Part shown: piece after piece, positions 1,617 through 43,789 of the stretch | Layout: each line of letters begins with the position of its first letter | Position numbering within the stretch: position 1 is the first letter of the stretch | Origin: a virus | IMG/VR virus record: IMGVR_UViG_3300028920_000126 | Location: 1-43,789 of that record | Strand: one strand, 5' to 3' | DNA: 43,789 nt | The notes under the pieces: generated by a model | Databases searched by the model: none | Told to the model about the DNA's origin: nothing | The model's input: the letters and a program-made list of their open reading frames with translations, nothing else | Position numbers and translations under genes: made by a program

Positions 1617-1897
1617 TCGGTGAGACGTAGTCGCCACTGGTCTCGATACCAGTGGCTGAACTGGGTACAGCTCATTTGCCGCATGTCGTAGTCGAGATGA
1701 TCGCAGGTGGCCTCGTTGGCCCCGGCGTACCCCTTGGTCAGGTCGACCGTGCATTCGTCGATGCACTCGGCGGGCGAGCCGGCGCCCTCAACCTGACACG
1801 ACACCAGCTTGTAGCAGATGGTCTCGCAGTGGTTCTCGCATGGAGTAGCGCCACACGACCAAAGGAGAACTACGGCAATCACTACTGTTGGCTTCAT
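1613..1897 (-). CDS. Cysteine-rich putative lipoprotein
   Basis: 94 residues. The ATG at 1897 overlaps the stop of the recombination gene (ATGA) and has GGAGGAG just upstream. Residues 1-14 form a short hydrophobic signal sequence (MKPTVVIAVVLLWS) followed by Cys15, consistent with a lipobox LWSC, so the mature protein would be lipid-anchored in the envelope. The remainder has eight further cysteines (C20, C24, C28, C34, C45, C49, C65, C77), suggesting disulfides in the periplasm or at the surface. It is expressed with the recombination gene, not the lysis genes, which suggests a superinfection-exclusion or lysogenic-conversion role by analogy with small phage lipoproteins. That role is inferred; it is not an o-spanin by position. 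Confidence 0.75.
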   Translation of the reverse strand: MKPTVVIAVVLLWSCGATPCENHCETICYKLVSCQVEGAGSPAECIDECTVDLTKGYAGANEATCDHLDYDMRQMSCTQFSHWYRDQWRLRLTD

Positions 1898-3609
1898 CGC
1901 TCCTCCAACTCGTCCGGGGTGTAGAGCCCCGAGGTAATGTCCGGGTAGACGACCCGAGCGAGCTGAGTCCCAGCTCGCCACAGGCACATCATCCCCGGTC
2001 GTTTCTTCCAGTTGTCGTTGCCGAGCAGGCCTGCCCGCTTGGCGTCCTCGAGCGTGAACGTCATGGTGACGGGCTCCGGCTCGTCGCGCCGCTTGGTCTC
2101 CCACGTCGCGCGGTCGTCCGCCTGCTCCTTGATTCGGAAGTACTCGCACGCTGGGTGGCGCTTCACCAGGCCGATGAGAAGCTGCGCACTCGGGCTGGCC
2201 TTCCCTTTCACGAAATGGAATCCGCGGAGAGATGACACTGCATCCATGCCGAAGGTGCGTCCGGTCATAACGATGGCGAGGATCGCCTCAGGGTTGGGGA
2301 AGTCACCAAACATCCTGGACCGGTGCATGCTCTTCGCCAGACCCCACGCCTGACCCATGTCGGCCGGCTCGAGGGCGCGGTCGTAGTCCGGGTTGCGCTT
2401 GACCATGGCGGTTTGTGCTGGGGGAATGACGACGTCGGGCTCGACCACCTCGGGCGCCGTCGGTGGCTCGGGGTCTGGCCCCTGTACCCCCGGAGTCGCA
2501 CCGGATTCAGGACCATCCACACTCACTGCAGGTTGTGCGGACTGAGTGGTCTCACCACCATTCGGGCCAGGGTCATCCGCCTGTGCTGACTCCTCCGCCG
2601 GGTGCGGCGGCTCCTCTTCCTCCCCGGGCATGCTGTCGAGGTCGAGCTCGGGCTGGCCCTCTTTGTGCTGCGGGTTCATCGGGGCGAAGAGCTGCTTCGC
2701 GTCGATGGGCGCATCGATCATCAGCTTGGTGAGACCGTGCCACTTGTTCAATTCGTCCCGGTTTTCGAGGATGGCCTCGCCGAGCGTCTTGCCGTCGCCG
2801 CCTGGCTGCTTGCGGGAGATGCGGTGAGCGTTGGCGATCACGCCGTCGAGGTCGCCGTACTCGTTCAGCCAGCCCGCCGCAATCTTGGTGCCCGCACCCT
2901 TGATGCCGGGGATGTTGTCCGACTTGTCTCCGATGATGGCGAGCAGATCTGCGACCAGCTCTGGATGAACTCCAAACTTCTCGAGGACCTCGTCCTGCCC
3001 GTACTTCTGCTGCGTCATCGGCGAGAAGATTTTTGTGTTGGGAGACACGAGCTGCATCAGGTCCTTGTCTCCGCTGAAGACGATCACCTCGATGCCCTGG
3101 TTTTCGGTGTGCTCGACCAGCGTGGCAATGATGTCGTCCGCCTCGTACCCTTCCGCCCGAAAGATGTGGTAGCCCAGCTCGCGGATCCGGTCGATGGTCT
3201 GGCGCATCTGCTCCTTCATCACCGTCGATGCCTTCTCCCGGTTCGCCTTGTACTCCTTCATGATGGATTGACGCTGGTACGGTGGCCAATCGAGGCACAC
3301 CCCGACGTGGTCGAAGTTGGAGGCGTGGTTCTCGATGAACCGCACAGTCTTGCGGTACGCCGAGCCGACCTCGTCCTGTTCGCTCGCGTGCCAGTGGATG
3401 CGGAAGATGTTGGAGAGGTCCACCAGGCAGGTGTGCTTCTCCTCTGCGGGTTTGTGCTCGGACACGGAGACTACCTCCTCGACGGTACCGAATTCGATCG
3501 CCGCCTGAACGCTGGCGAGGTGACCTGCTTTCTTGAAGCCGTCGGCCTCGACCTTGTGAATGGTAACTTGCCCGCCGTCGGCGAGCTCGACTGTGACATC
3601 CCAAAGCAT
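1894..3609 (-). CDS. Fused 5'-3' exonuclease / RecT-like annealing protein
   Basis: 571 residues in one uninterrupted frame, starting at the ATG at 3609 with GAGGAG 6 nt upstream (an in-frame extension to 3729 lacks a comparable site). Residues about 58-310 are a FEN/PolI-type 5'-3' exonuclease: metal-ligand motifs VDLSN (D64), EADD (E156, D158, D159), SGDKD (D181, D183) and GDKSDNIPG (D228, D231), followed by the GAGTK helix-hairpin-helix loop. Residues 311-404 are a Pro/Glu-rich linker. Residues 405-571 match the RecT-like single-strand annealing proteins of actinophages: AILAIVMTGRTFGMD, FVKGKASPSAQLLIGLV, TLEDAKRAGLLG, NWKKRPGMMCLWRA and the ending GLYTPDELEE. The first 57 residues are unassigned. 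The fusion would put both steps of phage recombination on one chain. Part assignments are firm; the combined activity is inferred. Confidence 0.88.
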   Translation of the reverse strand: MLWDVTVELADGGQVTIHKVEADGFKKAGHLASVQAAIEFGTVEEVVSVSEHKPAEEKHTCLVDLSNIFRIHWHASEQDEVGSAYRKTVRFIENHASNFDHVGVCLDWPPYQRQSIMKEYKANREKASTVMKEQMRQTIDRIRELGYHIFRAEGYEADDIIATLVEHTENQGIEVIVFSGDKDLMQLVSPNTKIFSPMTQQKYGQDEVLEKFGVHPELVADLLAIIGDKSDNIPGIKGAGTKIAAGWLNEYGDLDGVIANAHRISRKQPGGDGKTLGEAILENRDELNKWHGLTKLMIDAPIDAKQLFAPMNPQHKEGQPELDLDSMPGEEEEPPHPAEESAQADDPGPNGGETTQSAQPAVSVDGPESGATPGVQGPDPEPPTAPEVVEPDVVIPPAQTAMVKRNPDYDRALEPADMGQAWGLAKSMHRSRMFGDFPNPEAILAIVMTGRTFGMDAVSSLRGFHFVKGKASPSAQLLIGLVKRHPACEYFRIKEQADDRATWETKRRDEPEPVTMTFTLEDAKRAGLLGNDNWKKRPGMMCLWRAGTQLARVVYPDITSGLYTPDELEER

Positions 3610-3652
3610 CGTCGCTCCTCTCTGGGTTGTATCATGCGGGGCTGACTCCACC

Positions 3653-3667
3653 GCCACACTATGTGGC
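3653..3667. promoter_or_regulatory. Perfect inverted repeat, candidate operator
   Basis: GCCACA-CTA-TGTGGC, six-base arms around a three-base centre, about 45 bp upstream of the recombination gene start. Size and position suit a dimeric HTH repressor. Confidence 0.5.
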
Positions 3668-3705
3668 ACTGCCAGCAGCTCTCGACCCACCCCGGGGGGA
3701 TAACA

Positions 3706-3717
3706 GTCAAAGTTGAC
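3706..3717. promoter_or_regulatory. Inverted repeat over the -35 box, candidate operator
   Basis: GTCAA-AG-TTGAC, five-base arms; the right arm is most of the -35 box of the rightward promoter. Binding here would block polymerase, a standard repressor layout. Confidence 0.5.
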
Positions 3718-3742
3718 CCCGGCCCGCACCTCATGTTATACA
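3713..3742 (+). promoter_or_regulatory. Sigma70-type promoter for the HTH gene, near-leaderless transcript
   Basis: TTGACC (3713-3718), an 18-base spacer and TATACA (3737-3742). Transcription should begin near 3748-3750, only a few bases before the ATG at 3753, and no Shine-Dalgarno site fits between. This resembles lambda cI transcribed from PRM, which is leaderless. Confidence 0.7.
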
Positions 3743-11872: not shown

Positions 11873-12330
11873 TGCGGCGCCCTGACTGCAGCACCAAAGC
11901 ACGACCCTTGGTGTGGATTTACGCACCTAGGTGTCGCGGTATTTTTGACGGCGACAACCGAGCGGAGGGGTTTGAGGAGTATGCGCTAATCAATTGCCCC
12001 GATGGTAGTTCCGAGACCGGATCTACTCGCGTTGGTGTCATTGATTGGCTGTGCTCTCGTTTCGAGAAATGCGTCTCGGGCCATTGGATGCAGTGCTACG
12101 CCGAGCAAGGCAAGGCAGACGCAATGCAGCGTTGGCCAGGCAATTGGAGCGCGTGGGGTGAGGTGAGACCGCGACGCGGCACCACCTATGACGCATGGAA
12201 TCGCCCCGCCGATGGTCGGTTCTCGCTCTCCCTGTGGTCGTCTCACCTCTACTGCGGTGACGTCGACTCTTTTCAAACCAACAAACGACGCAAGGGGCAT
12301 AGCCCCTTGGAGGTGAGTTACAATGGGTAG
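11872..12330 (+). CDS. Hypothetical protein
   Basis: 152 residues, coupled to both neighbours (TGATG before, 8-base overlap after). Rich in Trp, Cys and Arg (VGVIDWLCSRFEKCVSGHWM, WPGNWSAWGEV). No family recognised. Codon choices look somewhat different from the late operon (more CGT and ACC/ATT mixtures), but I could not measure this. Confidence 0.65.
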   Translation: MRRPDCSTKARPLVWIYAPRCRGIFDGDNRAEGFEEYALINCPDGSSETGSTRVGVIDWLCSRFEKCVSGHWMQCYAEQGKADAMQRWPGNWSAWGEVRPRRGTTYDAWNRPADGRFSLSLWSSHLYCGDVDSFQTNKRRKGHSPLEVSYNG

Positions 12331-13159
12331 CTGTCCCCTGAGACCCGAACCCCCGAAGCTTGCATGCTACGCAACCGGCCCGGCTTTCGAGGTGAAGCCC
12401 GGCAAGGTGCAACCGATCCCCTTGCCACCTCGGAAGGAATCCAAGGCTGCTATCCTTTACAAGGTAGGCGGTCTTTCCGCTCCGAGTAAGATGCCCGGTT
12501 ATGGTTACTCGTTGCCGTGCGACGCATGCGTCATTGGTAGCTTGCTCGCCAAGAAGCCCGGCAGTGTGTGCGAAGGGTGCTATGCCAATCGCGGCAACTA
12601 CCGTTTCCCCAATGTGCAAGCGTGCTTGTTTGACCGCCTCGCATGCGTCGCACAACCGGAATGGGCGAGCAACATGGTCGCAGCGATCAATGCGGTCTAT
12701 CCCGATGACAGTGAGTCGCACTACTTCCGTTGGCACGACTCTGGAGACTTGCAATCGGCGCAACACCTCGCGTCGATTGTCGAGGTGTGCAAGCGTACGC
12801 CGCACGTCAAGCATTGGCTGCCGACGAAAGAGCGGGGATTCCTTGCGCGCTACTTGCGCGAGTCTCGCGAGTCGTTCCCGAGTAACTTGTGTGTCCGTTA
12901 CTCGTCTCACTACATCAATCAATCGGCGCCGGGTTGGCTTACTGTCGACAAGCGGACTCGTTGGGATGGTCATTACTCGTGGGTTTACGATCCCACAACC
13001 ATCAATCCGCTCTGTCTCGAAGATGTAGAGTCAGGAGCATGGGGACACCTCTGTCAGCCCACGTTTGACGGGAAGCATGGAACGGGATGCGACACGTACG
13101 GGTGCCGCGAATGCTGGAACAAGGAAACCCGCGTGGTCGTCTACAAGCGCCACGCCTAG
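12323..13159 (+). CDS. Gp88-family protein
   Basis: 278 residues. Matches the phage Gp88 family known from mycobacteriophages (PF17338, by recall): LPCDACVIGSLLAKKPGSVC and then EGCYANRGNY give a Cys cluster (C-x2-C...C-x2-C-Y-A), followed by FRWHDSGDLQSAQHL, TPHVKHWLPTKERGF and a C-terminal GCDTYGCREC cluster. The Cys clusters suggest a metal or Fe-S site. The biochemical function of the family is unknown. Centre of the second rightward operon, among small zinc-ribbon proteins. Confidence 0.8.
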   Translation: MGSCPLRPEPPKLACYATGPAFEVKPGKVQPIPLPPRKESKAAILYKVGGLSAPSKMPGYGYSLPCDACVIGSLLAKKPGSVCEGCYANRGNYRFPNVQACLFDRLACVAQPEWASNMVAAINAVYPDDSESHYFRWHDSGDLQSAQHLASIVEVCKRTPHVKHWLPTKERGFLARYLRESRESFPSNLCVRYSSHYINQSAPGWLTVDKRTRWDGHYSWVYDPTTINPLCLEDVESGAWGHLCQPTFDGKHGTGCDTYGCRECWNKETRVVVYKRHA

Positions 13160-14069: not shown

Positions 14070-14855
14070 GGCACGGGGCTCCCCTGGCGACAGCGCCTGG
14101 TGCTCCATTTTGGTGCACGACACGACGCGTCGAGACTGCACCATTTTGGGGCGAGCTTTCCAGGGTGCACCACCTCGAGGCACCCACCACGAGCTCTGCA
14201 CCATAATTGCGCAGCACACAGGCATCGCCAGGGCTTGGTACTGCCGTTCTATGGCACCCTGCTGTGCTTACTTCTCATGTAGGCGCGTGCTTACCTACCA
14301 TCCTAAGACGAGAGAATCCAACGAAGTCCACAGGGTGGGTGATATGACCCATTATTCTGTCAAGCATTTTCTTTCGCTCTCATTCCGAGGGGTTGGAGGT
14401 GGTTTCGGGGGCTCGAAACTGAGACTTGTGGCATTAATCAGACGTCGGAGGTGTCAGGTTCCAGAGGCTTTGGGGTGCCTGTGATAAGGGAACGCGCGGG
14501 CCCCAATCGGGGCTCCCGTGGCCCTTGGGGGGTGAATCTGGGGACACTTCCGATGTTCTGCCCCCAGTCTAGCCCCTGAGGTGTCTCATGGGCCCCTGTC
14601 GGGGCTCTGCGGAGACCACCGGCGAGCAAAAAACCCCCCTGGCCGCTCTGGTCCCGGCTTATCTCCCCTCGGCGCATTCTGAGGGCTCTAGACACCCGGG
14701 AGACTGGTACCGCTGGTCGCAGCTGTCCGGGCTCGAGGAGGTGCTCCAGAGGGGGCGCGAGAGTTTCACGTGAAGCATTAGACGGGGCGGGCAGTTGGTG
14801 GTATGGCACCGACCTGGGCTCAGAAGTACCGGTCTCAGACGCGATGGAGGAGACG
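14070..14855. other. Non-coding region before the late operon
   Basis: About 790 bases without a gene I can support. It contains TGCACCA-type repeats (14099-14204, listed separately), the palindrome CGACGCGTCG (14123-14132), and two GGGCCCC-xxTC-GGGGCTC hairpins near 14497 and 14590. GGGGCTC recurs five times between 14056 and 14606. A 46-codon reading at 14344 and a 61-codon one at 14588 lack ribosome sites. No consensus promoter is visible, although the late operon must be transcribed from about here; the phage may use an activator. Confidence 0.6.
14101..14204. repeat. TGCACCA operator-like repeats
   Basis: TGCTCCATTTTGG (14101-14113) and TGCACCATTTTGG (14137-14149) are near-identical 13-mers. 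The core TGCACCA recurs at 14166 and 14197, and its inverse TGGTGCA at 14111. Copies are 29-36 bases apart, about three helix turns, as expected for cooperative regulator binding. Confidence 0.6.
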
Positions 14856-15698
14856 ATGGCAGTAGGAACCTCGAAGCCCGTGTTTAGTCTTCGACGTGGT
14901 GAGCTGGCGGCGTACTTCCCGGACGCGAGGTCTGCGGATTTCGATTGGAAGGCGCATCCCCGGTTCGTGTGCGACCGCTGCAGTGGCGTCACCGTGGTGG
15001 ACCGCGACGAGACGATGATTGCTGAGGGGTGCCTGTTCTGTGATGCCCCGCGGCCCGGTGAGGCTCAGTGGGGACCAGGGTTGCTCGAGCAGATGGTAGA
15101 GCTCGGGAGTTTGCGTCAGAGGGTGATGTGGCTCGAGGAGGCGTTGCGGGATGCGCGGAAATACGATCTGAGCGTGCGCCTCAAGCGAAAGATAGACGAA
15201 TACTTGGCCCGGGTCGCGCCCGGGTCTTCGGAGTCGGCTACCACGCGAGGTCATGGTTCACGCGGTGTTGGCGACTCCACGCCCCCGGTCGGTGTAGCTT
15301 CTGTGCCTCCAGGCGTGGAAACCCTACATTCGGAGCCGGCCGGGGGCACCTCCGACCAGCCCGAGCCGAGCGAGCCGGTGAGCGACGAGATGCGCCCCTG
15401 CCCGCGCTGTGGTCGTCCAGGGTGTACCTGCACCGACGAGGAATTGAAGGATGCCCTGCGCCAGGCGCGGGATGACCACGCCTTTGTGTGCCGCCAACTG
15501 GATGCCGCCCTGGTGGCAAGCAAAGCCCTCCGCTTTGAGCGCGACGCTGCCGAGGATGGGTTCAGGTACGAGCAGCAGCGCGCGGATAGAGCCGAGGCCG
15601 AGCGGGACGGCTTCTCGAAGGGCGTCGCTGAGTTGCTCAGGCGCGTGGGCAGACTGGAGTCCGAGGTGGAGCGGCTGCGTGGCGAGGATTCGGAATGA
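14856..15698 (+). CDS. Zinc-binding coiled-coil protein, first late-region gene
   Basis: 280 residues from the ATG at 14856, with GGAGGAG 3-4 nt upstream (an ATG at 14844 lacks a site). Residues about 39-65 hold a CDRCSG...GCLFCDAP zinc pair; residues about 75-115 are helical; 120-180 is a Pro/Ser/Gly linker; CPRCGRPGCTC follows near 183; the last 95 residues form a long coiled coil (DALRQARDDHAFVCRQLDAA, RVGRLESEVERLRGED). No family recognised. A long-loop hairpin terminator follows it, so it may be transcribed separately from the head genes. Confidence 0.7.
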   Translation: MAVGTSKPVFSLRRGELAAYFPDARSADFDWKAHPRFVCDRCSGVTVVDRDETMIAEGCLFCDAPRPGEAQWGPGLLEQMVELGSLRQRVMWLEEALRDARKYDLSVRLKRKIDEYLARVAPGSSESATTRGHGSRGVGDSTPPVGVASVPPGVETLHSEPAGGTSDQPEPSEPVSDEMRPCPRCGRPGCTCTDEELKDALRQARDDHAFVCRQLDAALVASKALRFERDAAEDGFRYEQQRADRAEAERDGFSKGVAELLRRVGRLESEVERLRGEDSE

Positions 15699-15763
15699 CA
15701 CGGGAGGCGGGGGCAGTGTCCCCCGACATCTGACGTTTGGGTCGCTCGAGTTCTGACAGCTTG

Positions 15764-15815
15764 CACCCCCGGCGTCACAGACCCGTGTTTCCAGACTCGA
15801 CGCCGGGGGTGTTTT
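15764..15815 (+). terminator. Long-stem hairpin, probable terminator
   Basis: A perfect 13-base stem, CACCCCCGGCGTC with GACGCCGGGGGTG, a 22-base loop, and then TTTT. The short T-run and long loop make it weaker than the one at 14040. Confidence 0.65.
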
Positions 15816-15849
15816 CGTGGTAGCCGTTGGCAACCCCAGAGGAGAAGCA

Positions 15850-16311
15850 ATGGACCTCAAGACCGTTTCGTTCATTGGTCCGACCCGTATTGGGACCGAC
15901 CTGTTCACCAGCATGTCCTTGCACCCGACGCAGCCGACCGGCACTCAGCGGATCGAGTTGCTCATGGGTGCTGACCCGCCGGAGCCGTTCGTGCTGGTGC
16001 AGTTCAAGAATGTCGAGTACTGGGTGCCTCTGACCAACGTGGCGGCATTCGTGAAGGCGGAAGAGGTTGAACTCGGTGCGGCCGCGGGAATCACTGCGGA
16101 AGAGCAGGAACTCGGGACGGACATCCCGTCGGGGTACTGCTCGTGCGACACGAAGCACTACAACTTTGAGAAGGTCTGCAAAGAGTGCAGTCTCCCCATT
16201 TGGAGGAAGAGCAATGGCAACCAAGAAGACCACCAAAAAGAAGGCCTCATCGGCGAAGGCCCCCCAGGTGAGCTCGTCGGAGGAGAAAGCCTCCCCGACG
16301 TCGAGTTCTGA
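15850..16311 (+). CDS. Hypothetical protein with zinc ribbon
   Basis: 153 residues; the ATG at 15850 has GAGGAGAAGCA directly upstream. The first 95 residues are beta-rich (VSFIGPTRIGTDLF, RIELLMGADPPEP, FVLVQFKNVEYWVPLTNVAA), followed by a zinc ribbon YCSCDTKHYNF...VCKECSLPIW. The last about 32 residues read through the start of the next gene in another frame (98-base overlap) and are hydrophilic. Function unknown. Confidence 0.7.
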   Translation: MDLKTVSFIGPTRIGTDLFTSMSLHPTQPTGTQRIELLMGADPPEPFVLVQFKNVEYWVPLTNVAAFVKAEEVELGAAAGITAEEQELGTDIPSGYCSCDTKHYNFEKVCKECSLPIWRKSNGNQEDHQKEGLIGEGPPGELVGGESLPDVEF

Positions 16312-16636
16312 TTCCGAGGACGCGCCCCGCGCTGTGATGAAGCGCATGAGCGAGTTTCCTAACCTCCCGAAGGCCGATGGCGCTGGCCAGGTGGCGATGA
16401 AGGCGTGGGCCGGCGCGGCTTGCGTCGAGGTGCCCGAGCAGTACATGGTCGCCATGTCTGACGAGGTGTTCACCGGGTTCGGACCGTCGGAGCTGCACAC
16501 GCACTGGTCGGCCCCTCGCAACTTGCCGACCTCGTGGCACGACCTGAAGCTCGGACAGGGATACCTCGCGATCGTCTACCGTGCGGCGGTCATTGTCGAG
16601 TTCCAGCGTCAGGGGTTCATGACGGATGTCCGTTGA
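16214..16636 (+). CDS. Hypothetical protein with Lys/Ser-rich N-terminus
   Basis: 140 residues with GGAGGAAG 5 nt before the ATG. Residues 1-45 are a low-complexity tail (MATKKTTKKKASSAK, then Ser/Glu-rich). The folded part (50-140) includes GAGQVAMKAWAGAACVEV and SWHDLKLGQGYLAIVYRAAV. It overlaps the previous gene by 98 bases and the acetyltransferase by 11. The N-terminal tail resembles the Lys-rich proteins encoded just downstream. No family recognised. Confidence 0.65.
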   Translation: MATKKTTKKKASSAKAPQVSSSEEKASPTSSSDSEDAPRAVMKRMSEFPNLPKADGAGQVAMKAWAGAACVEVPEQYMVAMSDEVFTGFGPSELHTHWSAPRNLPTSWHDLKLGQGYLAIVYRAAVIVEFQRQGFMTDVR

Positions 16637-17108
16637 CGGGTTTCGCCTTCGGCCCCTGCAGTCGGAGGACATCCCGTTTGTCATGTCCACCTGGCTGAAG
16701 AGCCTTTGGAAGGCTCAGGGTCCATTCACGACGTTTCGTGCGTCGAATGGGCGAGCTCGCCGGTACGTGTCGAACACCGTGTTCTTCGCCGAGCATCACC
16801 GTGTGGCCACAGATCTGTTGAAGCGGTGTGGCGCCATCGTGGCGGAGGTGGAGGGCGCGGAGGACGAGATCGCCGGGTACATGTGCGCCGAGCGCAAAGA
16901 GACTGTACAGGGCGAGCAGTTCGTAGCACACTACGTGTACGTCAAGCCGCTGTACCGCAAGCTGGGGATCGCCAGATGGCTGCTCGAGGCAGCTGGGTGG
17001 AAGCCAGGTGAGGACATAGTCGCGACGCATGTCACCTACGTGCAGACGGACGGCAAGTTGACGGAACGGTTTCCAATCGAAAACAATCCGTATCTCATCT
17101 GGAGGTAG
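16626..17108 (+). CDS. GNAT-family N-acetyltransferase
   Basis: 160 residues. Shows the GNAT order: an N-terminal FRLRPLQSEDIPFVMSTWL, a central strand GAIVAEVE...EIAGYMCAER, the beta-4 strand HYVYVKPLYRKLGIARWLLEAAG with the acetyl-CoA pyrophosphate loop (R-K-L-G-I-A, of Q/RxxGxG/A type), and a C-terminal strand. It would acetylate an amine from acetyl-CoA. It lies immediately before five lysine-rich mini-proteins, which are conceivable substrates; GNAT proteins near phage head genes are also known without such neighbours. Substrate unknown. Confidence 0.8.
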   Translation: MSVDGFRLRPLQSEDIPFVMSTWLKSLWKAQGPFTTFRASNGRARRYVSNTVFFAEHHRVATDLLKRCGAIVAEVEGAEDEIAGYMCAERKETVQGEQFVAHYVYVKPLYRKLGIARWLLEAAGWKPGEDIVATHVTYVQTDGKLTERFPIENNPYLIWR

Positions 17109-17111
17109 ACC

Positions 17112-17297
17112 ATGGGCGTTCGCATGAAGCCGACGAAGCTGAGCAAGGCCGAGGGTGGTGTCGTCAAATCGAAGCTGAAGCCGAGACTGTCGGCGCAGCC
17201 GTGCCCGAAGTACGGGAAGAAGGGCGCACTGCCGGAGAAGATGACCAAGGCCACCGTGCCTCGCGTCAAAGGCGTGAATAAGGGGAGCCGGCAGTAA
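17112..17297 (+). CDS. Lys-rich mini-protein 1 of 5
   Basis: 61 residues, GGAGG 5-6 nt before the ATG. About 28% Lys/Arg with only two acidic residues; Pro and Gly spread throughout (KPTKLSKAEGG, KSKLKPRLSAQPCPKYGKK). One cysteine. No fold predicted by eye; resembles disordered DNA- or RNA-binding tails. Its TAA shares a base with the next ATG. Confidence 0.7.
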   Translation: MGVRMKPTKLSKAEGGVVKSKLKPRLSAQPCPKYGKKGALPEKMTKATVPRVKGVNKGSRQ

Positions 17298-17566
17298 TGG
17301 CCCGCACGATGGGTAAGCGGAAGGGCACCGGCCTGGCGATCAAGCGTCGTCGCGCCAAGGCGGCAACGAAGAAGAAGGAAACCGCCAAGGCGGCAGTGCG
17401 CAAGTACGAGACCGAGCGAAAGGCCGGCGGTCTCAAGAGCAAGCTCTTCCGTGGTGAGCCGGGGACCGCTAAGCGCAAGGCTGCAGCCGGCAAGGCCAGG
17501 GGCAAAGAGATCCTCGCCAAGAGTGCCTACAAAAAGGCTCTCAGGAAGAAAAGAAAGAGGCAGTAA
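17297..17566 (+). CDS. Lys-rich mini-protein 2 of 5 (histone-H1-tail-like)
   Basis: 89 residues, about 39% Lys/Arg (22 Lys, 13 Arg) against five Glu. Segments such as AIKRRRAKAATKKKETAKAA and KRKAAAGKARGKEILAK recall bacterial and eukaryotic H1-type tails: Ala/Lys helices when bound to DNA. The central part (VRKYETERKAGG) is the least basic. One-base overlaps with both neighbours. Confidence 0.75.
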   Translation: MARTMGKRKGTGLAIKRRRAKAATKKKETAKAAVRKYETERKAGGLKSKLFRGEPGTAKRKAAAGKARGKEILAKSAYKKALRKKRKRQ

Positions 17567-17709
17567 TGGCTTGCAAGAAATACACGAATCCGCCCTCGAA
17601 GGGGAAGATCCGACCGCGCACGAAGCCGTCGCGGACGCCGACCAATCGCCAGGGTGGCGAGCAGGTCGTTTCCACCTCACGAGCTCGGAAGATGTCGGGG
17701 AAAAGCTGA
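17566..17709 (+). CDS. Basic mini-protein 3 of 5
   Basis: 47 residues, found by reading from the TAATG junction; AGAGG lies 5 nt upstream. About 28% Lys/Arg, rich in Pro, Ser and Thr (KGKIRPRTKPSRTPTNRQ). One cysteine at position 3. Stop overlaps the next ATG (TGATG). No family recognised. Confidence 0.65.
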   Translation: MACKKYTNPPSKGKIRPRTKPSRTPTNRQGGEQVVSTSRARKMSGKS

Positions 17710-18092
17710 TGGCAGCTGGGAAACGAAGAGGGGCGAAGGTAGGCAAGCGTGTCCCGTATGCCAAGGCGAAGGCCATGGCCGACAAAAGGCGTCGTGGGAA
17801 GTCCGACAGTGGATATGCGGGCACCGGTGACGTCGCCTGGGAGCTGGGGAAACGCATCGGCGGCGCCATTCGCGGCAAGGCGAAGAAGTCCCGGGCCGCA
17901 GCTCGCAGCAAGGCAATGACGCCGGCCACGAAGAAGACCCAGCGAAAATACAGCATCGAGGTCGGAAAGCCTCGAGGCACAGGCGTGACCGTCGGCAAGC
18001 CCAAGATCCACAAAAAGGTCGGCGCGAAGAAGCGCCCGGCGGTGGCGAAGAAGACGATGCCGCGTCGCAAGACGCGAGGAAAGAAGGGCTGA
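17709..18092 (+). CDS. Basic protein 4 of 5
   Basis: 127 residues, about 34% Lys/Arg (27 Lys, 16 Arg) and five acidic residues. A short less basic stretch (SGYAGTGDVAWELGKRIGGA, residues 33-52) could be an amphipathic helix; the remainder is Lys/Ala-rich with KK, RRR and KKR clusters. Probably binds nucleic acid. Two bases separate its stop from the next start. Confidence 0.7.
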   Translation: MAAGKRRGAKVGKRVPYAKAKAMADKRRRGKSDSGYAGTGDVAWELGKRIGGAIRGKAKKSRAAARSKAMTPATKKTQRKYSIEVGKPRGTGVTVGKPKIHKKVGAKKRPAVAKKTMPRRKTRGKKG

Positions 18093-18093
18093 A

Positions 18094-18270
18094 ATGGCGA
18101 AGGCGAAATTTGCGAAGTCCGGCAAGCGCAATGTTCTCGGTTCTGCGATGTCGCCGGCGAAAGCCGGCAAGGCAGCCAAGGCAGCCAAGCGCAAATCCGC
18201 CGCCGCGGGCCGGAAGAAGGCCGCCTCTCAGATGAAGGCCTTCAAGAAGAAGTACGGCAAGCGGAAGTAA
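18094..18270 (+). CDS. Lys/Ala-rich mini-protein 5 of 5
   Basis: 58 residues: 17 Lys and 4 Arg (36%), 17 or so Ala, and no Asp or Glu. Repeated AKA/AKAAK units (AKAGKAAKAAKRKSAAAGRK) are the pattern of H1 C-terminal tails. It ends four bases before the terminase large subunit, so its expression is tied to packaging genes. Confidence 0.7.
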   Translation: MAKAKFAKSGKRNVLGSAMSPAKAGKAAKAAKRKSAAAGRKKAASQMKAFKKKYGKRK

Positions 18271-18273
18271 CGC

Positions 18274-19740
18274 ATGACCGTCATGACGGAGTACGAGGCT
18301 CGGCAGCTCGTTGCCGAGGTGCTCCGTCGTGGGCGGTCGAGCTCGGGGTACATACCCCACACGGCGACGCCTACCCAGCAGGCGTTTCTCGACTTCTCCG
18401 GCCTCGAGGCACTCTACGGCGGCGCGGCGGGCGGCGGTAAGTCCGACGCCATGCTGATGGGCGCCCTCGAGCACATCGACAAGCCCGGATACGCCGCACT
18501 CCTTCTCCGCCGAACCTTCAAAGATCTATCGCTCCCTGGCGCTCTTCTCGATCGCGCTCGAGAGTGGCTCTCCGGCGCGGATGTTCACTGGTCCGACAAG
18601 GAGAAGAAGTTCACCTTCCCCTCGGGTGCGAAGCTCGTGTTCGGGTACCTCGAGAGCGAGGCGGACAAGTACCAGTACCAGGGGGCTGAGTTTCAGTACA
18701 TCGGGTTCGACGAGCTGACGCAGTTCTCGGAGACGCAGTACACCTACTTGCTCTCCCGCCTTCGCCGCCTGGTCGGCATGGAGTCAATTCCTCTCAAGGC
18801 GCGCGGCGCGAGCAACCCGGGCGGCGTCGGGCACGAGTGGGTCAAACGCCGTTTTGTGGACAAAGACACTCGCGGCAATCGAAAGTTCTTCCCGGCGAAG
18901 CTGGACGACAACCCGTTCATTGACCAGGAGACGTACGAGCGGTCACTCTCTGAGTTGGATCCGATCACCTACGACCAGCTCCGGCGCGGTTTGTGGGTTC
19001 GCGATACGCACGGCTTGGTGTACAAGTTCAACTGGGACGCCAACGCGATTGAAGACTTCCCGCCGGAGGACTACAGAAGTGGCTGGACGTTCATCCACGG
19101 AATCGACTTGGGCTCGTCTGAAAGAAAGCCTACGACGGCTTTCTGTGTCCAGGCGTTCCACCCAGACATCCTCGCAGTCTACACGGTCTACTCCGAGCGG
19201 CATCAAGCTCTCACACCTACAGATATCGCGAACCGATGGAAGCAGCTCAACGCGGCGTGGCCCGCCGAGCGAACCGTGGTCGACGTGGGCGGTCTCGGCA
19301 AAGGTTATCTGGGAGAGTTCCAACAGCGCCATGGCATCCCTTGTCAGGAAGCTGAGAAAAACAACAAGCTCGGGTACCGGAAACTCGCAAATGGAGATCT
19401 GGCTCGAGGGCGTGTTCTGGTTGTCGCCGAAGACAATACAGAGCTCCTCGAAGAGTTCGACAACCTCCCCTGGAACGAAAAGGGAGACGACAACGAAAAA
19501 GGAAAGCCCTGCCACGTCTCGGACGCCTGGCTCTACTCCTGGCGAGAAGCCCGGCACTGGTTGAGCGAGGAGCCGGTCGAAGGACCTGCACGCGGGACGC
19601 AGGAATGGTATGAGCAGCAGGCAGCGGATATGAAGGAGAGGCACCGTCAGCGTGTCGAAGAAAGTAAGATGACTTCGACTCAGCGGAGGAGGATGAAGCG
19701 ATGGACTCTGGGCAGGAGCAGGATTATTCGGCCCGTTTGA
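18274..19740 (+). CDS. terL: Terminase large subunit
   Basis: 488 residues. ATPase: Walker A GGAAGGGKSD (residues 49-58), Walker B YIGFDE (D146, E147), coupling SNPGG (about 180-184). Nuclease: D278 in HGIDLG, D337 in VVDVGG and D417 in HVSDAW, the three metal-binding acids of an RNase H-type fold. The Walker A with GGG before KS is seen in the Terminase_6 group. The motor cuts concatemers and drives DNA into the head through the portal. Length is normal. The last 13 codons overlap the next gene. Confidence 0.93.
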   Translation: MTVMTEYEARQLVAEVLRRGRSSSGYIPHTATPTQQAFLDFSGLEALYGGAAGGGKSDAMLMGALEHIDKPGYAALLLRRTFKDLSLPGALLDRAREWLSGADVHWSDKEKKFTFPSGAKLVFGYLESEADKYQYQGAEFQYIGFDELTQFSETQYTYLLSRLRRLVGMESIPLKARGASNPGGVGHEWVKRRFVDKDTRGNRKFFPAKLDDNPFIDQETYERSLSELDPITYDQLRRGLWVRDTHGLVYKFNWDANAIEDFPPEDYRSGWTFIHGIDLGSSERKPTTAFCVQAFHPDILAVYTVYSERHQALTPTDIANRWKQLNAAWPAERTVVDVGGLGKGYLGEFQQRHGIPCQEAEKNNKLGYRKLANGDLARGRVLVVAEDNTELLEEFDNLPWNEKGDDNEKGKPCHVSDAWLYSWREARHWLSEEPVEGPARGTQEWYEQQAADMKERHRQRVEESKMTSTQRRRMKRWTLGRSRIIRPV

Positions 19741-19988
19741 TTTCGGACCTGCAGCAGCTCGTGGACTTTGCCCGCGAGAACGGAATCACGAAGCTCGAGG
19801 CCGGCGGGTTTGCATTCGAGCTCGCCCCAGTGGAAATCGCGAAGCACGCTCGGAAGCAAGTCGAGAGCCACATGACAGACCGAGAGCGCGAGGAAGTCCG
19901 AAAGCGGATCCTCGAGGAACGCAAACGGCGCGGACGACCAAAGAATCTCGAATACTGGTCGTCTCCCGACCCGATCAACAGGGAGTAG
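19701..19988 (+). CDS. Small hypothetical protein between terminase and portal
   Basis: 95 residues, starting inside the terminase gene (40-base overlap) after a GAGGATGAAGCG site. The first half contains LVDFARENGITKLEAGGFAF, resembling a short winged or beta-hairpin segment; the second half is a charged helix (TDREREEVRKRILEERKRRG). Many podoviruses have a small gene here without assigned function. Confidence 0.7.
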   Translation: MDSGQEQDYSARLISDLQQLVDFARENGITKLEAGGFAFELAPVEIAKHARKQVESHMTDREREEVRKRILEERKRRGRPKNLEYWSSPDPINRE

Positions 19989-19991
19989 AAG

Positions 19992-21959
19992 ATGTCCGGA
20001 CGCATTTGGTACGACGAGCGGTCTGCGATGAACGACCAAGGTGTGTTCTCGCACGCCTGGTGGAAGGAATCGAAGGAAGAGGTCTGGCGTGCTCTCTGGG
20101 GCGTGGTCAAGGCGCTGCGCAACGAGCAGCAGCACACCGCGAAAAAGAACCTCCACCACAATCGCCTCTACGGCAACATGGCGGTGGTCGGCATCGATGC
20201 GTACAACTACACGCAGCTCGAAGAGCCCTACGAGGATCGGTTGACGTACAACGTGGTCGAGTCCGCGGTCGACACCATCCACGCCGACATCTGTTCGCAG
20301 AAGGCCAAGGCCATGTTCCTCACCGACGAGGGGGACTACAAGGCGCAGCGCCGAGCCGAGCGCCTGAACCGGTACACGTTCGGGCAGCTCATGCATCTGG
20401 ACTTCTGGAAGGACACCTCGCCGAATGTCATCTGGGATGCTCTGGTCTTTGGCACCGGTATGCCGTGGGTCCACGCCGAGCACGGTCGTCCCGCCATTGA
20501 GCGTGTCTTCCCCCATGAGATCATCGTGGACGACATCGACGCGCGCGAGCGCAGGCCGCAAATGATGCTCTGGCACGGGCTGGTCAACAAGGACAAGCTG
20601 CAGCAGAAGTACCGGGACCGAGGCGACAAGCGTGCGGTGAAAAAAATCGAAGAAGCCAAGATCGTGGTGATGGACAACTCCACGAACCTGGCGGTGGCAC
20701 AGGTCGAGGTCGTTCGCGGCTGGCACCTTCGGTCTTCACCGTCGGCGAACGACGGGCGCTTCGTTGAGGCGTGCAACATGGGCGTCCTCGAGGACACGGA
20801 TTGGGAGAAGGACTACTTTCCGATGCCTTCGCTGCGGTACAAGCCGCGCCGGCTCGGGTACTGGGGGAAGGGCGTCCCCGAGATCCTCTCCGGCGCGCAA
20901 CTCGCCATCAACGACCTGTTGTGGCAGATCCACGAGCACCTGCGCCTTGGCGGCATGAAGGTGTTTGTGAAGCCCGGCAGCGGCATGAACATGGCCCACC
21001 TCGACAACGAGATCATGGGCGTGATCGAGACCCTCGAGCCCCCGTTCCTCGCCGACTTCGCCAGTGTGCCGCCCGACCTCGTGTCTCAGTACCACGACGA
21101 GGTGCAGAACGCGTACTCGCTGGTCGGCGTGTCTGTCATGGCGGCGAGCTCGGAATTGCCGGCCGGTCTCACCCGCCCGTCTGGCAAGGCCTTGAGGATT
21201 TACTCCGACAAGAAGAGCCAGCGGTTCGTGAAGTTCGCCCAGGCGGTCGAGGACTGGACCGTCGAGGTGAACGAGCAGCTCATCGAGGTCGAGCGCGACC
21301 TCCAGAAGGACGCCGAGCCCTACAATATCCTGGTCCCGAACGACGACGGCACCGCGGAACTACTGAAGTGGGCCGACGTCGACATGGATCGCGACAAGTA
21401 TGTCATACAGGCGTTCCCGACGTCGTTCTTGTCTTCGACGCCGGCATCGCGCATCAAGGACGTGCAGGAGCTGGTGGCGCTCGAGCCCACTCTCCAGCCC
21501 TACGTGCTCAAGCTGCTCGACTTCCCCGACCTCAAGGCGGTCACCTCGCTGATCAGTGCGACCATCGACGTGGCCATGAAGATGATCGAGCACAACTCCG
21601 AGCTGACGGACAAGTCGGCGGAGAAGTACATGCCTCCGGAACCAGAGATGAATCTGGACTTGACCGTGAAGCTCGCGCAGGCGTATTACCTCCGGGCGAA
21701 GCTCCGGAACGCCAAAGAGCAGGATTTGAAGTACCTGCTGAAGTTCCTGAAGCAGGCACGGCATATGGCCAAGGACGCAGCTCAGAAGCTCATGCAAGAG
21801 GAGATGGCAATGCAGGCCGGCGCAATGGCCCCGCCAGGGGCCCCTGTCGCGCCGCCGCCTGGTGCCGCTCCCGGGGGTGCGCCCGCGCCGGTCGACGTCA
21901 GCGTCACCAACAACATGCCACCAATGCCCATGGGTCCGGGCATGCCGCCCATGGGATGA
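19992..21959 (+). CDS. Portal protein
   Basis: 655 residues, normal for podovirus portals. N-terminal half has the usual DRLTYNVVESAVDTIHAD segment and the 'PHEIIVDD' strand; a long central region continues through GYWGKGVPEILSGAQLAIND and DEVQNAYSLVGVSVMAASS, typical of P22-like portals; the C-terminus (about 615-655) is a Pro/Gly/Ala/Met-rich tail. It forms the dodecameric ring at one vertex through which terminase packs DNA. GGGAG precedes the start. Identification rests on these patterns plus position after terminase and before scaffold. Confidence 0.88.
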   Translation: MSGRIWYDERSAMNDQGVFSHAWWKESKEEVWRALWGVVKALRNEQQHTAKKNLHHNRLYGNMAVVGIDAYNYTQLEEPYEDRLTYNVVESAVDTIHADICSQKAKAMFLTDEGDYKAQRRAERLNRYTFGQLMHLDFWKDTSPNVIWDALVFGTGMPWVHAEHGRPAIERVFPHEIIVDDIDARERRPQMMLWHGLVNKDKLQQKYRDRGDKRAVKKIEEAKIVVMDNSTNLAVAQVEVVRGWHLRSSPSANDGRFVEACNMGVLEDTDWEKDYFPMPSLRYKPRRLGYWGKGVPEILSGAQLAINDLLWQIHEHLRLGGMKVFVKPGSGMNMAHLDNEIMGVIETLEPPFLADFASVPPDLVSQYHDEVQNAYSLVGVSVMAASSELPAGLTRPSGKALRIYSDKKSQRFVKFAQAVEDWTVEVNEQLIEVERDLQKDAEPYNILVPNDDGTAELLKWADVDMDRDKYVIQAFPTSFLSSTPASRIKDVQELVALEPTLQPYVLKLLDFPDLKAVTSLISATIDVAMKMIEHNSELTDKSAEKYMPPEPEMNLDLTVKLAQAYYLRAKLRNAKEQDLKYLLKFLKQARHMAKDAAQKLMQEEMAMQAGAMAPPGAPVAPPPGAAPGGAPAPVDVSVTNNMPPMPMGPGMPPMG

Positions 21960-41619: not shown

Positions 41620-43789
41620 ATGGCAATCACGAGTCTGTACCTCGAGGCCGACTTCGGCGTGCTCTACACAGGCCTCTCCACCGTGGGGTACACGTTGTAC
41701 AACGCAGCCGGCGGCGTCGTCGTGGCGCGTACCACGACCGGCGTGGCCGAGCGCGGGAGCTCCGGAGTGTATGGTGTGACGGTGCCGACGATCGCGGATT
41801 CGGTCGCCTCCATCGTGTGGGATACCGGCGGCGGCTCGCCCGTCTACGCCTCCGAGGACATCGAGTCGGTCATCCGCCCGGCGCAGGACATTACCAAGTT
41901 GTCGGGTGGCGTATTTGTTGGCCCGCACGGCAACGACGCCAACACCGGCGAGCGCTCGGACCCGGTCGCCACCCTGGCGCAAGCCATCATCGTGGCAAAC
42001 GCCAACGACGTGCGACGCATCAACTTCGTAGGTGACTTCACCGGTCAGTCCATCACTGGCGCCGTCGATGGATTTGAGTTCGTTGGCGACGGTGCCCCAA
42101 GCGCTGGCGCTTCGATCAATCTCAACGGGCAGCTCGTGACCAACTGCTCGTTCGTGCGGCTGAACGTGGGCAACGTTGTGGCCGCCGGTTCGACCAACAA
42201 CGTATTCACCGAATGCAACCTGGCCAACATCCCGACCGGCGGCATCGGCAACCGCTTTGACCGTTGTACCCTGGCCGACACCATCAACATCACCAACGGT
42301 GCTTCACACGTATTCAAGTCGTGCTCCTCTGCGGTCGTTACCGGCGTCGGCTCGGCGCCGACGGTCAGCCCCAACACGTCGACCGGAACCAACATCCTGT
42401 TCACCGACTGGGAGGGAGACCTCACGATTGCGGACATCGTCAACGCCGGTGACGACGTCGAGATCAGCATGCGGGCCGGGGACCTCGTCATCGACTCGAC
42501 CTGCACGGCAGGCACCATCACGGTGCGCGGGACGCCGACGAGCATCACGGACAACTCGACCGGTGCCACCGTGATAGACGAGACCGCCACGGTGAGTGTT
42601 GCTCCGCAGCCGTCTTGGTTCGATGCCATCTACTGCGACCCGACCAATGGCAACGACTCCAACTCGGGCACGCCGGCCGATCCTGTGCTCACCCTGGCGC
42701 AAGCCATCACAAACTGCGGCACGGAGGGCCTGTCCCGTATCGTCATTACGAGCGACACGATCACCACAAACATTCCGCTGGCGGTCGACCCGGGCGGCAT
42801 CGAGATTGTGAGCGCCAACCCAAACCACGAGATTGACATCCAGTCGGTGTCGATCAACGGCACGGTGTTTCGCAACCTCACCATCGACGGCAACCTGCTG
42901 CCCCCGTCAGGGGCCGGGCCTCAGTTTGTCAACTGCACCATCATCTTGGGCAATTGCGGCGGCACCTTTGTGAATTGCAAGTTCAGCGGTGTGCAGACCA
43001 TGGTGGCGGCGTTTGGCATGATCTGCATCGACTGCGACAGCCTCCTGTTCCACACCATCGACATGAATGGTGGTGACCCGTCAGCACCGCTGATCATGAG
43101 CGCCCACAGTGGAGACCTCACTCTTCGGGACTGTTCGGACGCCACGCAGTTGGCTATCATCCGCGGCGACGGATTTCTTGAGCTGAATCTCCTTTCCACC
43201 ATCAGTAACATCGGCCTCGAGGTCGGCGGCACCGTGCGTCTGGTTGACGGCAGCACTGGCGGCACCATCAACGACTACAGCACCACGCAGCTCGTGGACG
43301 ATGAGCAGACCGCGCAGCACGGCGCTGGGTCCTGGCAGACCGGGGCGGCTACCCAACAGGACATCCGCGACGCCATGAAACTGGCTCCGACTGGCGGGGC
43401 GCCGGCGGCCGGTTCGGTGGACGAGCACCTCGATGACATCCTCGCGGATACCGCTGCGATGGAGCCCAATATCGACGCAGCCATCAGCTCGAGGGCGACT
43501 CAGGCCGACATCCTGTCGGACGCTACCCCGTTCCCGGGGTCCAATATCGATGCAGCCATCAGCTCCAGAGAGTCTGATGCAGATGCTGCGACCAGAGCGT
43601 CGGACATACAATCGGACGTTGCGCTGGAGAACGCCCAAACCCGCGGGTTCATTGCGAGCGAGATCCCGGTCATGAAGGCGTACATCACCAACGAGCACAA
43701 CATCACGAGGGCTGACATTGCCGCCCTCAACGACCCCTCTGCGGCAGACATTGCCGACGCCGTCCTGCGCGAGGTGGTCGCCTACCACG
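41620..43789 (+). CDS. Large tail-fibre/spike protein, N-terminal part (continues at base 1)
   Basis: 723 codons here; joined to 1-336 through the terminal overlap it gives about 790 residues. GGAGGG 3-4 nt before the ATG. The first 85 residues form a beta domain ('LSTVGYTLYNAAGGVVVART', 'SSGVYGVTVPTIADS'). Two DUF1565/beta-helix openings follow: FVGPHGNDANTGERSDPVAT and YCDPTNGNDSNSGTPADPVL, each then TLAQAI, so the protein is a tandem duplication of right-handed beta-helix units. Near the C-terminus the element NIDAAISSR occurs twice, a trimeric coiled-coil repeat typical of fibres. Probably the host-recognition fibre. A T at 43783 replaces the G of the left copy (Asp to Tyr) and may be a sequencing error at the contig end. 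Confidence 0.85.
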   Translation, partial: MAITSLYLEADFGVLYTGLSTVGYTLYNAAGGVVVARTTTGVAERGSSGVYGVTVPTIADSVASIVWDTGGGSPVYASEDIESVIRPAQDITKLSGGVFVGPHGNDANTGERSDPVATLAQAIIVANANDVRRINFVGDFTGQSITGAVDGFEFVGDGAPSAGASINLNGQLVTNCSFVRLNVGNVVAAGSTNNVFTECNLANIPTGGIGNRFDRCTLADTINITNGASHVFKSCSSAVVTGVGSAPTVSPNTSTGTNILFTDWEGDLTIADIVNAGDDVEISMRAGDLVIDSTCTAGTITVRGTPTSITDNSTGATVIDETATVSVAPQPSWFDAIYCDPTNGNDSNSGTPADPVLTLAQAITNCGTEGLSRIVITSDTITTNIPLAVDPGGIEIVSANPNHEIDIQSVSINGTVFRNLTIDGNLLPPSGAGPQFVNCTIILGNCGGTFVNCKFSGVQTMVAAFGMICIDCDSLLFHTIDMNGGDPSAPLIMSAHSGDLTLRDCSDATQLAIIRGDGFLELNLLSTISNIGLEVGGTVRLVDGSTGGTINDYSTTQLVDDEQTAQHGAGSWQTGAATQQDIRDAMKLAPTGGAPAAGSVDEHLDDILADTAAMEPNIDAAISSRATQADILSDATPFPGSNIDAAISSRESDADAATRASDIQSDVALENAQTRGFIASEIPVMKAYITNEHNITRADIAALNDPSAADIADAVLREVVAYH
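43657..43789. repeat. Right copy of the 133-bp terminal overlap
   Basis: Repeats bases 1-133 with one mismatch at 43783. Trimming one copy gives a circular map of 43,656 bp. Confidence 0.9.

Follow-up and report, generated by a model that had tools for sequence, protein, structure and literature searches.

Five genes for small polycationic proteins occupy a variable slot between the terminase gene and a conserved GNAT gene in an environmental phage

Between the gene for a GNAT-family N-acetyltransferase and that for the terminase large subunit (TerL) of an environmental phage lie five adjacent small genes, here called b1 to b5, which encode strongly basic proteins. The phage is represented by a virus record of 43,789 bases of environmental DNA (IMG/VR IMGVR_UViG_3300028920_000126, positions 1 to 43,789), which was analysed in its full length and is referred to below as the window. 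The best explanation we can offer, and one to which we give about an even chance of being right, is that b1-b5 form a lineage-specific, mostly unstructured polycationic late set in a variable slot between GNAT and TerL, whose products would bind DNA (or the scaffold) and enter the head like the internal proteins IPI-III of T4, while the GNAT would be a separate enzyme with its own substrate. A first-pass annotation had tentatively joined the GNAT and the basic proteins in one system; the comparison with other phages dissociates the two.

The five genes follow one another on the forward strand with hardly any space between them: b1 (61 aa, 17112-17297; 28% Lys+Arg, net charge +15), b2 (89 aa, 17297-17566; 39%, +30), b3 (47 aa, 17566-17709; 28%, +12), b4 (127 aa, 17709-18092; 34%, +38) and b5 (58 aa, 18094-18270; 36%, +21). 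Stop and start codons overlap at the first three junctions (TAATG, TAATG and TGATG), a single base separates b4 from b5, and three bases lie between b5 and the TerL gene. This tight coupling, the Lys+Arg content of 28-39% and the flanking GNAT and TerL genes had been described in the first-pass annotation and were borne out on re-reading the window, as was the lack of acidic residues in the last protein: the Asp+Glu counts from b1 to b5 are 2, 5, 1, 5 and 0, and b5 is moreover 28% Ala. The whole set has a net charge of +116, with predicted isoelectric points of 11.0-12.0, 17-41% hydrophobic residues and at most 5% aromatic ones. Codon scores are positive in frame for all five genes (0.06-0.15 per codon; TerL, 0.08, and the portal protein, 0.15) and negative in the other two forward frames, so that b1-b5 look like genes and not like shadow ORFs. 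They are the window's sole ORFs of at least 40 aa with Lys+Arg above 25% and Lys above 12%, a 213-aa ORF that also passes this filter being the b4 frame extended upstream; with these arbitrary thresholds, and with ORFs called mechanically, five starts would cluster within 1 kb by chance at a probability of about 1e-6.

The charge of each protein was compared with that encoded by 1,000 dinucleotide shuffles of its own gene. Net positive charge exceeds the shuffle mean in all five, strongly so in b2 and b4 (values reached in 2 and 1 of the 1,000 shuffles, respectively), moderately in b5 (11 of 1,000) and weakly in b1 and b3 (61 and 45 of 1,000). Part of the Lys/Arg richness is due to the purine-rich strand, the AT skew of the array stretch being 0.39. 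The proteins also differ from each other, as had been claimed: paralogy among them was ruled out, with all z values against shuffles at or below 0.4.

No Pfam family was matched by b1-b5 at E values up to 1, nor any PHROG, nor any homologue among the ORFs of the related loci that were fetched. Of the five, b4 was searched by itself against phage and viral contigs, by tblastn and with degenerate patterns, again with no match, while b1, b2, b3 and b5 were compared with the families and with the ORFs of the fetched loci; since homologues were not found, selection on these proteins is not measurable. The structure predicted for b4 from single-sequence input is of low confidence and has no compact fold (pLDDT 66, pTM 0.22), with two predicted helices (residues 17-30 and 40-68) and no predicted structure beyond residue 68. 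The proposed resemblance to histone H1 tails thus holds for composition and fails for sequence: b1-b5 share with such tails and with viral protamine-like proteins their richness in Lys (in some cases also Ala) and, in b4, the sole one modelled, low predicted structure, whereas none matches a Pfam profile of histone H1 or of bacterial H1-like proteins.

The array runs directly into the packaging and head genes. The TerL gene (18274-19740, forward strand) matches Pfam Terminase_6N (1e-10) and phrog_979 (6e-57); it is followed on the same strand by a gene for a 95-aa protein (19701-19988), with weakly similar ORFs in the related loci L089 and L095, and by the portal gene (19992-21959), for which 35 related loci were found and whose product is 26-32% identical over its length to the portal-position proteins of loci L008 and L014. 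Further downstream are a scaffold, predicted from its position and acidity (net charge -24), a weak hit to a major head protein (phrog_14242, E=0.001), an adaptor of SU10 type (Pfam PF24175), a match to an internal virion protein (phrog_511) and an M15 peptidase endolysin. The predicted capsid protein is acidic as well (net -14). Together with the type of portal, the internal virion protein suggests a podovirus-like particle. The left part of the window encodes a 5'-3' exonuclease and a cytosine methylase; the exonuclease match covers both domains within one ORF (1894-3729, reverse strand), the C-terminus of which has a weak RecT match below cut-off, and a GP88-family protein is encoded at 12323-13159 (Pfam PF17338, E=2e-26). 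With a long ORF (41620-43788) that runs off its right end and a short one (16-336) that starts at its left end, the record may represent a nearly complete genome that is circularly permuted.

Upstream of the GNAT gene, and overlapping its start, lies a 140-aa ORF (16214-16636, forward strand; codon score 0.138) with a Lys-rich N-terminus and an otherwise ordinary composition, which matched no Pfam family above cut-off, no PHROG and, by phmmer, none of the ORFs of relatives. No terminase small subunit was recognised in the window upstream of TerL (14844-16636) by homology to the candidates of loci L008 and L100. The ORF at 15817-16311 may be the counterpart of a small gene conserved between GNAT and TerL in relatives, the profile match being insignificant (E=1). 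Scans for promoters and terminators gave nothing exceeding shuffles.

The product of the GNAT gene itself (16626-17108, forward strand) scores above cut-off against two Pfam families, Acetyltransf_7 (E=1.1e-6) and Acetyltransf_1 (E=3.7e-5). Its AlphaFold (AF2) model is confident (mean pLDDT 87.8, pTM 0.83), and searches with the model retrieved GNATs from the PDB and from viral structure libraries. The acetyl-CoA motif R/Q-x-x-G-x-G/A is intact as RKLGIA, and in the alignment of 18 homologues R111 and G114 are near-invariant (at least 90% conserved). By family profile and predicted fold it is a member of the GNAT superfamily, with a presumed acetyltransferase role. Foldseek returned generic GNAT-fold matches (TM about 0.4-0.55); the best in the PDB include polyamine acetyltransferases and yeast HPA2 (TM about 0.4-0.5), which we do not take to indicate the substrate, the similarity being that of the general fold. 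Among phage enzymes, Rac (gp28 of LUZ19 and phiKMV-like phages) is likewise a podovirus GNAT whose gene shortly precedes head genes, in LUZ19 standing two genes ahead of that for the head-tail connector; the enzyme leads to cleavage of the alpha subunit of the host RNA polymerase, for which its acetyltransferase pocket is required (PMC7552054). Its profile match with the GNAT of the window is, however, confined to 32 columns at the acetyl-CoA motif (hhalign probability 24.9, about 25%), and kinship with Rac beyond that motif was rejected, as was kinship with T7 gp13 (hhalign probability 0.2), to which a GNAT of the cobavirus group has been compared (PMC6775973); hence no function is transferred to the enzyme of the window from either. 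GNATs of cobaviruses and Bcep22-like phages are also encoded among virion genes (PMC6775973, PMC9144972), those of cobaviruses near internal virion and tail tubular genes, whereas the GNAT of the window lies upstream of TerL with only b1-b5 between.

Relatives were collected from TerL and portal alignments in IMG/VR and GTDB genomes, a second TerL scan being more specific. The TerL of the window is at most about 50% identical to those of the listed relatives over most of the protein, and scanning IMG/VR with this one protein brought up no close relative; conservation of the array within the genus is therefore not assessable. The matches listed include 49 distinct relatives, defined as loci that include the TerL and portal genes together with no less than 1.2 kb of upstream sequence, and 35 of these carry a homologue of the GNAT beside TerL or portal, in 30 upstream of TerL and in the other 5 between the two genes. 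The basic array is present in none of the 49, absence here meaning absence from the examined flanks of up to 10 kb; the most to be seen within 2.5 kb is one basic gene, in three of the loci. Accordingly, the GNAT belongs to the core and the array is a private occupant of a variable slot. This interval between GNAT and TerL is empty in some relatives, and in others holds a recurring small gene of 70-125 aa or other genes, such as one resembling, by eye, a terminase small subunit (L100) or a zinc-ribbon-like gene (L123, also by eye). In two loci it holds genes for ClpP-like proteases (Pfam CLP_protease; L089:4157-4882 and L090:4309-5010), which are of interest because material enriched with Rac contained ClpX and HslU (PMC7552054). 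Among the relatives with the GNAT gene after TerL and before portal, some have it downstream of a glycosyltransferase-like ORF (L014:3998-4990 and L114:4609-5058). One further locus encodes, about 0.8 kb upstream of TerL, a protein of about 150 aa rich in Arg, Lys and Thr and without a family (L023:1504-1953), a possible single-gene counterpart of the array.

Arrays of basic genes do occur elsewhere. A mechanical scan of the 171 TerL-related loci among the matches listed found, in the 2.5 kb preceding TerL, three to five basic genes in 16 loci and two such genes in 8 more. The 16 are more distant, resemble the marine HTVC103P/HMO-2011 type and lack this GNAT in the examined flanks, as judged by a profile built from the present clade, which is specific to it and might overlook GNATs of other kinds. 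Four to five lysine-rich genes of 45-105 aa stand in a row at L043:114-1174, L053:723-1696, L047:258-1712 and L068:411-2023. The proteins of the marine-type arrays belong in part to PHROGs annotated without function (phrog_17747, phrog_14910, phrog_7595 and phrog_31838), one family downstream in these loci is DUF6321 (PF19846), and relatives of the basic proteins are encoded by the cultured phages HMO-2011, CRP-345, CRP-4 and several pelagiphages. Like b1-b5, they are small and Lys-rich, lie in the packaging or late region and have some genes with overlapping stop and start codons; the likeness is nevertheless one of composition, for the marine phages, with a TerL about 32% identical, form another clade, their arrays adjoin no GNAT of this family, and no pairwise comparison of b1-b5 with the four PHROGs reached p <=0.03 against shuffles. 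The arrangement thus recurs independently of sequence homology. In a few searches of the literature we came upon no description of the marine lysine-rich arrays upstream of TerL. No acetyltransferase is annotated in 49 of the 55 kb of HMO-2011, and none in HTVC103P except a distant toxin-activating lysine-acyltransferase. CRP-4 encodes a GNAT (PMC6918029), which is among the structural matches of the GNAT of the window with TM-scores of only about 0.5, as well as a protein like phrog_7595, around which no GNAT is annotated within 10 kb; co-occurrence in one genome is therefore possible.

These comparisons bear directly on the idea, put forward in the first-pass annotation, of a DNA-condensing set tuned by acetylation. 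That the GNAT acetylates lysines of b1-b5, and so tunes the condensation or release of DNA, would agree with the adjacency of enzyme and array, the intact acetyl-CoA motif and the polyamine acetyltransferases and HPA2 among the top PDB matches, though these share just the general fold; yet we now think it improbable, since the enzyme has homologues in 35 of the 49 listed relatives, none of which has the array, and arrays stand in 16 listed loci without this GNAT, so that the adjacency is explained by the conserved position of the GNAT. Gene order in relatives cuts both ways for the original proposal: arrays exist without the GNAT, but they still lie near packaging genes, and DNA binding or condensation is still the most plausible role by composition, b4 model and position. 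Most improbable of all, in our judgement, is the bolder version in which unrelated phage lineages independently built protamine-like multi-gene sets beside the terminase, loaded onto DNA at packaging as a phage counterpart of viral core proteins, with a GNAT recruited here to modify them. Apart from the T4 internal proteins and Rac, our literature searches found no direct precedent for packaged lysine-rich phage proteins or acetylated virion proteins.

The main rival to the internal-protein reading is action on the host, in which b1-b5 would bind the nucleoid, RNA or transcription machinery of the infected cell and would not be virion components. Genes for host takeover are usually early, and b1-b5 abut TerL in the packaging gene run instead of lying in an early region; we regard this rival as possible but unlikely, even if a small orphan phage protein, gp4 of LUZ24, targets the host DNA-binding protein MvaT (PMC4635203), and Rac shows that a podovirus GNAT encoded beside head genes can act on the host (PMC7552054). 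Somewhat less likely still are assembly factors, that is, accessories of scaffold, portal or terminase acting through protein-protein contacts and absent from mature heads: the array does sit inside the terminase-portal-scaffold block and the predicted scaffold is acidic, but the 49 listed relatives, whose TerL and portal are homologous, have at most one basic gene at this place, and the core assembly machinery can therefore do without b1-b5. As to turnover of orphans, namely genes of recent origin, with or without translation, that lie in a purine-rich stretch and serve no selected role, the skewed composition, the weak charge excess in two of the five proteins and the failure to find homologues (in families and fetched loci, and for b4 also in contigs) are what it would lead one to expect. 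Against it stand the coding-like codon usage of all five genes, their overlapping starts and stops, the strong charge excess in two proteins and moderate excess in a third, and the recurrence of such arrays in other phages, several of them containing families that are conserved from isolate to isolate; we consider it improbable that nothing more is involved.

According to the internal-protein reading, the five genes would be expressed late and made together with the packaging machinery, their products would attach to the DNA of the phage, or to the charged scaffold, and reach the head as small internal proteins, and there they would help to neutralise or organise the packaged DNA, possibly being ejected with it; the GNAT would act separately, on its own substrate. 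Consistent with this are the overlapping or near-abutting gene run into TerL, the coding-like codons, the charge of +116, the lack of a compact fold in b4, the acidic predicted scaffold and capsid protein, the recurrent arrays in the 16 listed loci and the variable slot; the failure to find homologues and the weak charge excess in b1 and b3 count against it. The closest known parallel is that of T4 IPI, IPII and IPIII, which are likewise small, basic, several in number and little conserved between related phages, are present in about 300 copies each per head and bind DNA at low salt (PMC9026906). The likeness is functional and implies no homology, for the T4 proteins are proven virion components with capsid-targeting sequences that are cleaved off, whereas b1-b5 are known from their genes.

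In evolutionary terms, the comparison separates two things that seemed coupled: a GNAT that, on sequence evidence, is a separate and conserved core gene of the packaging module of its clade, and arrays of basic genes found again in unrelated lineages, cultured marine phages included. The proteins b1-b5 are a further case of an already known but poorly understood kind, the small basic proteins of phages. In the usual picture phage DNA is neutralised by counter-ions, and packaged basic sets would run contrary to it: if such sets went into the head along with the genome, some tailed phages would contain genome-condensing proteins in abundance.
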